64,000 bases of DNA from Verrucomicrobiota bacterium (GTDB lineage Bacteria > Verrucomicrobiota > Kiritimatiellia > CAIQIC01 > JAGNIJ01). Location: assembly GCA_022710725.1 (NCBI GenBank), contig JAKLGK010000004.1:310001-374000 (forward strand). The letters are read 5' to 3'. Of the stretch, positions 5,101-62,738 are shown piece after piece; the first letter of the stretch is position 1, and each line of letters begins with the position of its first letter. Made by a program: the position numbers and the translations under genes. The notes under the pieces were generated by a model. The model searched no databases. It had not been told where the DNA came from and saw only the letters and a list, made by a program, of their open reading frames with translations.

Positions 5101-6691
5101 CTTTCCTTCCTGGGTTCAGGTGTTCGACGGCGAAAGCCACGCGGACGATCGCGGCGCTGCCGCGGCCATGGACCCCTTGGACAACGTGGTGGTGGCGGGG
5201 GAAGTCCGCGGATCCGGCGACGGGGACGACATGCTCCTGCTGAAGCTCGACCCCAATGGCCAGACGCTGTGGGCGACGAACTACGACGGCAGCGGGCACG
5301 GCGATGACGCCGTCAAGGACCTGGGCGCGGACGGCCTGGGCGAAATCTACGCGCTGCTCGACTCCACCGGAACCAACGGCAACATGGACTTGGTGGTTTG
5401 TAAGTACAGCGCAGACGGGCAGTTCCTCTGGGAGTATCGCCGCAACGGGACCGCCAATACCCATGACTACGCGACGGCTCTCGCTGTGCCGGGCACCGGC
5501 GGCGTTGTGGCTGCCGGGATGACCGTCGACGCCGCGACCAGCAATGACGTGTTCCTGGCCCGGTTGAATGCCGACGGCACGCCGGCGTGGGTCACGACCT
5601 ACAACGGGCCCCATGAGACATCGCGCGATGAATGCAATGACATGAGCACGGACGCTGGCGGGTCCATTTATCTCACGGGCACGAGCACGTATCCCGGGCC
5701 GCCCCAGCAATGGCGGGTGTTCAAGTATTCCGCCGGCGGCACCCAGGAGTGGAGCCAGTTCTGGTACGCGCAATCCGGGGCCGCCATTGCCGTAAATGAA
5801 GCGACCAATGTCTGGGTGGTGTCCGGCGGGGGACTGCTTCGCAACCTCGATCCGGCCACCGGCGTTCCCCGCTGGGAGCGGACCCTGACCTTCCCGTACA
5901 TGACGGGGTTTGCAGCCTATGCCCTTCTGCCCGGCCCCCGGACGCAAGTCTACGTGGCGGGTCGCGCTTCGGACGGAAAATACCGCTACGCCGCGGCCTG
6001 GGTCGGTTCGACCGGAGAGGTCCTGGCAACCGCGACGGTGGATCGCGACGAGCACAGCGCGGGCCACAAGTATCTGAACACCGCCATTCTCGATGCCTTC
6101 TGGCAACCCTACCTTACGGGAAAGGGCGGAGGAACCCTGCGCTTGACTCCATCCCTTGGGGAGTTGGGGCGCGTGACGGGCAGCCCGACGGAGGGCATCG
6201 CCCTCGCGGCCGACAGCACGGGGGCCGTGTACATGGTGGGCTCCTCGGACAACTTCACAAACCAGAACGATCTGGTCGTGGTCAAACTGGCGCCCAGTCC
6301 CTCCGGGGATTTTGACGCCGACCAGATTCCCAATGACTGGGAAATCAAGACCGGCGGCAATGCCTATGACGCCGTGCCCGGGCAGGATCCGGACGACGAT
6401 TCGATGACGACCTGGGAAGAGTACCTGGCTGATACGGATCCGACCAACGGGACCTCCGCACTCGCCGCGCCCGCGCTGGTGACGCGGCCGGACGGGTTCT
6501 TATACCGGATCACGGGAACCTCAACGGGCCGGTTATATGATATCTTCTGGAAAACCAACCTGCTCGACGCGGCAACGCCCTGGCAGTTCAGCGGCTACAG
6601 CAGGCTGGGAACCGGCGGTGTCCTGGAGATCGTTACGAACATGCCGACCGTCGATGTTCTATTCCTGCGTTCAGGCGCACGCCTGCCCTGA
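2144..6691 (+). CDS. Giant secreted mosaic protein: BACON domains, beta-propeller repeats, Asp-rich C-terminus
   Basis: About 1515 residues from a GTG at 2144, which gives a clean signal peptide (MILRLASLFFVPLAPAA). The frame is open upstream to 2030, but that extension would begin inside phoU. Visible architecture: a WD/YVTN-like propeller region (1-300); an Fn3-like segment (about 310-400); a BACON-like domain (about 410-490, with ALTAQAPWLSCTPTSG); a second propeller region; a second Fn3-like segment; a second BACON-like domain (about 885-975, with CDCAWMQMAPTSG); SBBP-type propeller repeats (about 985-1385, with LLLKLDPNGQTLWATNY); and an Asp-rich calcium-binding-like stretch (DFDADQIPNDWE, QDPDDDSMTTWEEYLADTDP). 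No catalytic motif is recognised. It is likely an extracellular or surface protein binding carbohydrate or protein; function unknown. Confidence 0.8.
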   Translation: MILRLASLFFVPLAPAATRFLPVPGPPLTHLRTDYQRPFLYALQEGATSTDACRLLFIDTRTDAIATNCPAGLNASDLAIVYGDTRLYVANWKQAACCTFDLDAQASAGPVALPSECRRLSGGSQGRLLAEKEGVTTSSDVLLLESTSGTTRASWSGRLGDGDIEPTRTNYFHAQNRQLFRLVVTTNAITSDGASEGFPEVGGWDDTVVLSADGQTIFCQGRAIDRRLEVVRTFPEPIRAVSLHGEVAVGTQQVFSTATGDPLLALPAPSSVSAFSGDQRKLYVYDSVSNGLYVVDLTNEIALSNAWLQPEPADGALMGRMPPLCWTPTPVADGYDVYGGAISQEVALAGTGSVTFLGRTTAGRLTPTSALPVQSEYFWRVDALTSSGAVQGAVWRFTSGPVVVQPGEINALTLEHAPTLATQLQVRAVATNVWALTAQAPWLSCTPTSGLGASLVSVALRPEGLSPGRHESALRVESGAFTDTVPVVLQVLTQEVVRVAADRKRARVYALHAAADQLSAVLAFDSASGVMTGLLFVGRGASDMELDPASDDLWCVSGFDSSLSRIALSTFDHVDTIPFNLGLSGAQVSIYQVAPGPSNYVYVADPYYLPAVHILEKGSGQEFTGATANRTGDLTVNGDGASMLAWRYVSGTPAVWRLDCRTTNLTVVDTFDGHISGNPMDYPTLVSPDGAFVIKHYTKLAYSNLASGAVRIFSEALWSWSPDGRLLAAGSNVLEEASGQRVYDLPFYTGLQVFSGDGSALVRIHPTTRQWSMVSAALYSAPPAPPAGPIPTDNAVVNPAPDTLHWTVAERTVRYHVYLDTDAATVGAAEPGGTAYLGATTNAEWSLTHALACATTYYWRVDSVGVYTTTTGTVWTFHVPAGTLSPILISTNIPEGFSPAPGIFDVALCGPALGWTVACDCAWMQMAPTSGAGNDTVTGTYDTATLSPGVYTGRISLAMGRDVLAVPLSLTVTTNPALHPIPGGVLFPSWVQVFDGESHADDRGAAAAMDPLDNVVVAGEVRGSGDGDDMLLLKLDPNGQTLWATNYDGSGHGDDAVKDLGADGLGEIYALLDSTGTNGNMDLVVCKYSADGQFLWEYRRNGTANTHDYATALAVPGTGGVVAAGMTVDAATSNDVFLARLNADGTPAWVTTYNGPHETSRDECNDMSTDAGGSIYLTGTSTYPGPPQQWRVFKYSAGGTQEWSQFWYAQSGAAIAVNEATNVWVVSGGGLLRNLDPATGVPRWERTLTFPYMTGFAAYALLPGPRTQVYVAGRASDGKYRYAAAWVGSTGEVLATATVDRDEHSAGHKYLNTAILDAFWQPYLTGKGGGTLRLTPSLGELGRVTGSPTEGIALAADSTGAVYMVGSSDNFTNQNDLVVVKLAPSPSGDFDADQIPNDWEIKTGGNAYDAVPGQDPDDDSMTTWEEYLADTDPTNGTSALAAPALVTRPDGFLYRITGTSTGRLYDIFWKTNLLDAATPWQFSGYSRLGTGGVLEIVTNMPTVDVLFLRSGARLP

Positions 6692-62091: not shown

Positions 62092-62130
62092 TTGACACCC
62101 ATGGCCACACTTTGCAAAGTGTGGCCATGG
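62092..62130 (+). promoter_or_regulatory. Promoter-like TTGACA with 32-base perfect palindrome over the regulator start
   Basis: TTGACA at 62092-62097 and a perfect palindrome at 62099-62130 whose half is CCATGGCCACACTTTG. The palindrome covers where the -10 would be and contains the ATG (62127) of the regulator. A start site at the usual distance falls at the ATG, suggesting a leaderless message. Expected behaviour: autorepression by the encoded winged-helix protein. Confidence 0.7.
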
Positions 62131-62702
62131 TGGAATCCGCTCCAGCACCGGCTGCCCCGACCCTGTGGCGCACCTGCCGCGCGCTGGCCAATCGTCAACG
62201 GCTCCTCTTGCTTCGCTACTTGGTGTTCCATCCCTATCGGCATGTGTCCGAGGTCGCCCAGGGCGTGCGCCTGCCCGTGGCCGTGGCGAGTCAATACCTG
62301 CGGATATTGAACGCCCGAGGCATGCTCCAACCGACGCGCGTTGGGCCCCGTGTTTTTTATCGCGCTGCCCCGGACCCGTCGATGCCGCAGGCCGCCACTT
62401 TATTATCCTGCATGATAAATAGTTATAAAAGCGGCAAGGCGTCCATAGAGGACATCCGCTTCGCCCTAACCGGCTTCACTCACTCGCGCCGCGTTCAACT
62501 TGTCCAGGCACTTTCCAGGGGCCACGGGACGATTCGTTCGTTGTCCCACAAGACCGGAATTTCCAGGCGAGCGGCCTTACGGCACATGGACAAACTGCGG
62601 AGGCGGGGGTACGTCGAGCGGCGCGGCAACACGTACAGGATTCGCCGCCCTCTTTCATCGGTGCGGGCCACTCTCGTGAGATTGGCTTGGCGTCAATCCT
62701 GA
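62127..62702 (+). CDS. Tandem winged-helix (ArsR-like) transcription regulator
   Basis: 191 residues from the ATG inside the palindrome; a TTG at 62112 would be an alternative. Two winged-helix units: domain 1 about 8-82 (TCRALANRQRLLLLRYLVFHP, VASQYLRILNARGMLQPTRVG) and domain 2 about 105-180 (HSRRVQLVQALSRGHGTIRSLSHKTGISRRAALRHMDKLRRRGYVERRG). No metal-binding Cys cluster is obvious. Copies of the same palindrome core lie at its start and just after its stop, so it is probably the cognate DNA-binding protein for CCACACTTTGCAAAGTGTGG. Confidence 0.82.
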   Translation: MVESAPAPAAPTLWRTCRALANRQRLLLLRYLVFHPYRHVSEVAQGVRLPVAVASQYLRILNARGMLQPTRVGPRVFYRAAPDPSMPQAATLLSCMINSYKSGKASIEDIRFALTGFTHSRRVQLVQALSRGHGTIRSLSHKTGISRRAALRHMDKLRRRGYVERRGNTYRIRRPLSSVRATLVRLAWRQS

Positions 62703-62706
62703 TCAC

Positions 62707-62738
62707 CCCGCGCCACACTTTGCAAAGTATGGCGCGGG
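62707..62738. promoter_or_regulatory. Second copy of the CCACACTTTGCAAAGTGTGG palindrome
   Basis: 32 bases with half CCCGCGCCACACTTTG and complementary half differing at one base (GTATGG for GTGTGG). The core matches the 62099-62130 palindrome, but the outer arms are different sequences that still pair, so the symmetry itself is maintained. It lies four bases after the regulator stop and 37 bases before the DUF4832-type gene. Confidence 0.75.

Follow-up and report, generated by a model that had tools for sequence, protein, structure and literature searches.

In the window (here, the whole stretch of 64,000 nucleotides of Verrucomicrobiota DNA that was analysed), the gene for a winged-helix regulator lies between two palindromes, and the locus raises the question of what the encoded protein does with such sequences, at its own gene and elsewhere in the chromosome. 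The preliminary description had regarded the gene and its palindromes as a 'self-contained' module. This view had to be given up: the palindrome core recurs more than 30 times across this genome, for the most part well away from any homologue of the regulator. On balance we favour a reading in which the protein would repress its own gene and also sit at many gene ends, perhaps as a roadblock to transcription or an organiser of the chromosome.

The regulator locus and its protein

The features of the locus are collected in Table 1. The upstream palindrome, CCATGGCCACACTTTGCAAAGTGTGGCCATGG, is perfect over 32 bp and covers the -10 region and the start codon, as originally described. It is centred 12 bp 5' of the regulator ATG (62127-62129), as in many diverged homologues, and holds this ATG within its right arm. 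The -10 position, CAAAGT, is a weak hexamer, the letters of which are set by the palindrome. Transcription is predicted to begin at or close to the ATG, which fits the leaderless transcript proposed before. The downstream palindrome, CCCGCGCCACACTTTGCAAAGTATGGCGCGGG, follows the regulator stop (TGA, 62700-62702). It had been described as self-complementary with the same core; the palindrome is real, but one of its pairs is mismatched (CACAC facing GTATG), so that the two cores are identical at 19/20 and not 20/20 positions. The 20-mer core (≤3 mismatches) was found twice in the window and in none of 100 dinucleotide shuffles; both palindromes are real, far beyond chance.

Table 1. Coordinates of the regulator gene, its promoter elements and the flanking palindromes (window numbering)
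Feature	Position	Strand	Basis or remark
-35 hexamer TTGACA of the regulator's own promoter	62092..62097	+	read from sequence
Perfect 32-bp palindrome CCATGGCCACACTTTGCAAAGTGTGGCCATGG, proposed auto-operator	62099..62130	.	spans -10 region, expected transcription start and ATG
-10 position CAAAGT, inside palindrome CCATGGCCACACTTTGCAAAGTGTGGCCATGG	62115..62120	+	inferred from 17-bp spacing off the -35
191-aa single-chain double-ArsR (tandem winged-helix) regulator, paralogue A	62127..62702	+	Pfam HTH_5, NCBIfam HTH_metalloreg, AlphaFold, fold alignment of both halves
Second 32-bp palindrome CCCGCGCCACACTTTGCAAAGTATGGCGCGGG, one mismatched pair	62707..62738	.	centre 20 bp past regulator stop

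The window protein gave matches to Pfam HTH_5 and related winged-helix models, and NCBIfam HTH_metalloreg matched 92/92 family members. Its AlphaFold model, for which an alignment of 92 homologues was used as input, reached a pLDDT of 95.8 and showed, within a single chain, the helix pattern of two full ArsR units. The N half superposes on CadC/CzrA (VIA, Z about 13, up to 13.5) and the C half on BigR/SmtB/SqrR (VIA, Z about 12-13, up to 12.9), in agreement with the two-winged-helix architecture assigned at the outset. The best PDB profile matches were single-domain ArsR entries only; no dedicated NCBIfam or Pfam model for a double-ArsR protein was found, nor was a description of the family or its palindromes found in the literature. 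The sequence has no CxC-type metal motif in alpha-3 of either half, on which ground a role as metal sensor was rejected; a single Cys, C17, is conserved in at least 90% of family members. A phage or plasmid origin was also rejected, as a search of viral contigs, phages and plasmids returned no relative.

Family spread and matching of proteins to palindromes

Homologues are present in 73 of the 288 genomes of the class. Named relatives belong mostly to Kiritimatiellae/Lentisphaerae, with some in other Verrucomicrobiota (Spartobacteria, Limisphaerales and Pedosphaera) and one labelled Planctomycetota. A palindrome stands at the gene start in 59/97 homologues (1/94 and 2/93 in control windows) and 3' of the stop in 26/96 (2/91 and 4/88 in controls); a strong start palindrome is absent in about 40% of homologues. 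Over 98 loci, with near-empty controls, the upstream palindromes cluster just 5' of the start, many of them with their centre 11-15 bp ahead of the ATG, and the downstream ones concentrate 0-75 bp past the stop. Loci with palindromes on both sides carry matching copies in 25/26 cases, and the agreement of the two copies within loci is 16.65/18, compared to 12.93 after shuffling between loci. Where the palindrome overlaps the ATG, a TTGAC -35 often lies 23 bp 5' of the palindrome centre (TTGA at exactly -23 in 12/54 homologues, and at -22 to -24 in 18/54), so that a bound protein would cover both the promoter and the start codon.

In addition to the window paralogue A, this genome encodes four good paralogues (B, C, D and E). 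Paralogue B (C8) is bracketed by the core of A, but with TTTC arms. Paralogue C (C2) carries TCATGCTCACACTTCTAGAAGTGTGAGCATGA over its ATG and another copy 100 bp upstream, paralogue E (C14) carries TGTATCACAGTTTATAAACTGTGATACA(TG) over its ATG and a further copy 78 bp upstream, and for paralogue D (C1) the stop is followed by a palindrome of another sequence. A cobalamin riboswitch (Rfam RF00174) is located near the paralogue E locus, at L078:6166-6287.

Paired with their palindromes, 78 regulators (an effective 75 at 70% identity) showed a correlation between protein distance and palindrome distance (Mantel rho 0.40, 0/500 permutations, 78 pairs). Residues 53, 56 and 57 of the N recognition helix associate with the base at the palindrome centre; in the C helix, positions 10-11 are linked to residue 148 and G at position 5 to K156, and residue 74 of the N wing associates with position 7. 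The recognition helices hold 12 of the top 25 residue-base associations, against 4.2 expected. No single residue-base pair exceeds the best shuffled score (max Z 6.8, 60 shuffles), and only the block-level tests hold: 0/60 shuffles and 7/182 circular shifts for the N helix with the centre and, more weakly, 3/60 and 10/182 for the C helix with the outer positions. In a blind check in one genome (G064), a palindrome class without a called gene proved to bracket a third, previously unlisted homologue.

Among the 288 genomes, regulator and site are both present in 43, the site only in 14, the regulator only in 30 and neither in 201 (OR 21, Fisher P about 1e-19); the 14/57 site-bearing genomes without a regulator are those with no match at 1e-10 when a part of the candidates, 11 per genome, was scored. 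The abundance of the core far from homologues, which had been named as grounds for refuting the proposal, is literally what was found, yet the sites follow the regulator-carrying genomes, which speaks for a network and not a false motif. The matching is best explained if each family member recognises its own private palindrome. G089 and G157 contain 28 and 9 CACASTT-type palindromes, respectively, many of them GTAC-centred, with no regulator match at 1e-10 among the 11 candidates scored; these belong either to a more diverged regulator or to orphan sites.

From the covariation, we suggest that two chains probably bind one palindrome, in which the N-terminal recognition helix would read the centre and the C-terminal helix the outer half and arms. 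Bound at the start-codon palindrome, the protein would cover the -10 region, the transcription start and the ATG of a near-leaderless promoter, and hence repress its own gene. Selection on the palindrome and autoregulation, both postulated earlier, are supported in that the start-codon geometry recurs in diverged homologues bearing different palindromes and that residues co-vary with palindrome bases. Binding of the palindromes is strongly supported in silico, autorepression is well supported by the promoter geometry, and we are highly confident that cognate binding and autorepression would be found together.

Dispersed sites, their placement and turnover

The sites of this genome form 44 clusters, every one of them intergenic. 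The core of paralogue E is found at 24 places, and another genome (G078) contains 116 CACASTT-type sites. An unbiased scan of the complete 311-kb contig C13 of this genome, in which palindromes with a score of at least 10 counted as long, gave 21 long palindromes, of which 14 belong to regulator classes, compared to 1-3 in Markov simulations. A-class and B-class sites have a common core and different arms (GC-type and TTTC-type, respectively). The covariation of arms noted earlier is true of the two window copies; genome-wide, it amounts mostly to these two arm classes plus weak covariation within sites, which is clearest at position 14 of the A class (P=0.009) and position 15 of the B class (P=0.0025) and fainter or absent elsewhere.

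In four genome sets, the median distance from the site edge is 50 bp to a stop and 129 bp to a start. With genes called by a simple codon-usage script trained on known genes, not a standard caller, convergent gaps are over-represented at sites, both in the fetched loci (24/67 vs 35/306, OR 4.3, P=8e-6) and relative to the whole contig C13 (24/67 vs 33/209, OR 3.0, P=0.0008). The genes next to the sites have housekeeping roles without relation to one another (threonine synthase, NadA, Pta, KsgA, RuvB and carbamoyltransferase), and no functional theme was found among them. Many sites are paired, at 77-79, 85-90 or 100 bp in this genome and 59-60 bp in G064 and G163. Within this genome, the distances between paired palindromes follow a helical phase of about 10.5-11 bp (R=0.83, P=0.001), and the distinct spacings of all genomes likewise peak at 10.5; the DNA inside the pairs is rich in AT and for the most part not alike, though the spacing is kept. 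In the E pairs L064, L065, L071, L074, L076 and L078, a weak, roughly central motif (ATATTYCTTAAG-like; ATWTYCTTAA-like) was seen by eye, possibly a third protein site or a bend.

Comparison with a genome of the same genus (G002), the sites of which match its own regulators, showed positions shared with this genome (G000) that have the same core (L013/L152, with the arms changed symmetrically, and L018/L157), positions occupied by another palindrome class (L006/L171, L070/L155 and L075/L142), and about a dozen syntenic gaps without the site in the same-genus genome. At L075:3540, this genome has one E-class palindrome where L142 (G002:C42) holds a whole regulator cassette with palindromes; the lone palindrome could be a scar from recombination between the flanking palindromes of such a cassette. 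A second comparison, of G050 with G070, showed regulators of 63% identity with the same cores and different arms, and dispersed sites that mostly carry the arms of their own genome. The regulator locus was the only site neighbourhood shared, and orthologous places included one decayed and one class-switched site.

The dispersed sites are likely to be bound by the same proteins. Paralogue A, together with paralogue B, which shares its core but not its arms, would then occupy dozens of palindromes at gene 3' ends and in convergent gaps, often as pairs that keep to one helical face, and may act there as a roadblock or insulator, halting RNA polymerase or bridging DNA. The gene-end and convergent placement, the symmetric sites and the phased pairs fit a bidirectional roadblock, an insulator or DNA bridging. 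The effect of occupancy at these sites is the least certain step, and a roadblock or insulator action analogous to the operator and stoperators of mycobacteriophage L5 is put forward only tentatively.

Alternative readings and relation to known systems

The fast site turnover fits a mobile element as well, in which the palindrome-gene-palindrome unit would be a selfish, autonomous cassette. The single palindromes and the 60-100 bp pairs would then be scars left by excision or copies that are not autonomous, with the protein serving mainly the spread of the element or its own control. The invariance of palindromes (identical 20-bp core in 24/25 E-class sites) at positions that differ between same-genus species, the adherence of dispersed sites to the arms of their own genome in G050 and G070, the lone E palindrome at the place of the G002 cassette, and the preference for gene ends and convergent gaps, as would be seen for insertions that are tolerated, all agree with this reading. 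The bracketed protein, however, has winged-helix matches only and no transposase domain, the pair interiors are mostly unlike although their spacing is preserved, several positions are common to species, some with a different palindrome class, and the residue-base covariation and promoter geometry speak for regulatory DNA binding. No target-site duplication was seen in the intergenic DNA of G000/G002 and G050/G070, which is too diverged to show one. We consider a mobile element somewhat unlikely. A nucleoid-organising or division-timing system, with SlmA/Noc-like addresses and the paralogues as interchangeable architectural proteins, would account for the tens of palindromic sites per genome (up to the 116 of G078), their gene-independent intergenic placement, which resembles that of SlmA/Noc (PMC4726725), the presence of different classes at the same positions in relatives, and the site-rich contigs such as C13 (9 clusters vs 3.4 expected); the phased pairs would suggest bridging. 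It is nonetheless unlikely, given that the several fast-diversifying sets found per genome do not resemble SlmA or Noc and that the protein family differs from both. In the draft contigs, where the skew is too weak to place origin and terminus, no clear relation of the sites to either could be shown.

An ordinary transcription factor with a regulon, for which the dispersed palindromes would be promoter operators, including the one before the DUF4832 gene, has in its favour the classical autorepressor geometry at the regulator gene and the sites 5' of some genes, divergent gaps included. We regard it as improbable: the sites are closer to stops than to starts and enriched between convergent genes, and their neighbours lack a theme. 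The downstream copy at the window locus, which precedes the DUF4832 gene, is a trait of the regulator gene whatever its neighbour (the next gene of paralogue B is convergent), and DUF4832 was therefore rejected as the regulated target. The remaining alternative, that the palindromes act as RNA hairpins or intrinsic terminators and not as protein sites, is scarcely credible. Perfect dyads near gene ends could form hairpins, but of the outward flanks only 3/136 are T-rich and no Rfam family was found at the sites, which led us to reject an RNA element. Intrinsic-terminator-like sequences do not seem rarer at gene ends with a site than without, which would weigh against the favoured reading; on this apparent lack of difference, intrinsic terminators were also rejected. 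Class-protein matching, promoter geometry and helical phasing are likewise not expected of hairpins.

In loci L001-L024 and L064-L081, intrinsic-terminator-like sequences are rare (5/119 gene ends without a site), which suggests other modes of termination in this lineage. A repeated inverted repeat of REP-like appearance (GGCACGCGAATTGC-short loop-AATTCGCGTGCC), outside the regulator classes, was observed at L027:2822 and near 6246 of G000:C13 (L327).

Returning to the autorepressor with many gene-end sites, the bracketing, the promoter overlap and the genome-wide matched sites are read directly from the sequence, and the many relatives with several self-matched protein-site sets point to an undescribed chromosome-wide binding system. 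We hypothesize, as a serious possibility if short of an even chance, a lineage-wide addressing system, in which several orthogonal, autorepressed double-ArsR proteins per genome would use private palindromes, in phased pairs at gene-end and convergent positions, to stop transcription or fold the chromosome, as an undescribed bacterial counterpart of the stoperators. The 78 regulators with matched palindromes form a large natural set for learning how winged-helix specificity changes. The genome-wide, non-promoter site set in uncultured Verrucomicrobiota may mark gene ends, where intrinsic terminators seem rare, and if the roadblock or architectural reading is true, this would be a new bacterial way to separate transcription units or fold chromosomes.

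Among known proteins, the ArsR/SmtB family (CadC, CzrA, BigR, SqrR and NolR) shares with each half of the window protein its winged-helix fold and sequence profile, and with the locus an inverted-repeat operator over its own promoter. ArsR/SmtB proteins are homodimers of single-domain subunits of about 100 aa with a metal- or thiol-sensing cysteine pair, whereas here two units are fused in 191 aa, CxC is absent from both alpha-3 helices, and each half-site is apparently read by both units. SlmA with SBS and Noc with NBS also involve a sequence-specific protein and tens of dispersed palindromic chromosomal sites (PMC4726725), comparable to the 44 clusters here, but they are of the TetR or ParB family, with one system per genome and Ter-depleted sites (PMC4726725). 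REP/BIME elements with RAYT resemble the present sites in being short palindromes outside genes that stand alone or in pairs close to gene ends, and in the flanking of a gene by its own palindromes (PMC3733652). REP sequences carry a GTAG or CGTC tag (PMC3733652), of which there is no consistent counterpart at the listed sites, where the dyads are perfect and loop-free; RAYT is a Y1 tyrosine transposase, unlike the DNA-binding winged-helix protein bracketed here. The nearest worked-out parallel for the use of promoter and intergenic sites by a two-domain chain is, by analogy, the immunity repressor of mycobacteriophage L5/TipsytheTRex, which has one site type in its promoter (operator) and in more than 20 short intergenic spaces (PMC9283540). 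It too is one chain with two DNA-binding domains, has own-promoter and many intergenic sites, and diversifies in specificity between relatives (PMC9283540). It differs in acting on a phage genome through asymmetric 13-bp sites oriented with transcription and in its unrelated fold (PMC9283540), whereas the sites described here are symmetric palindromes on a bacterial chromosome, with several sets per genome.
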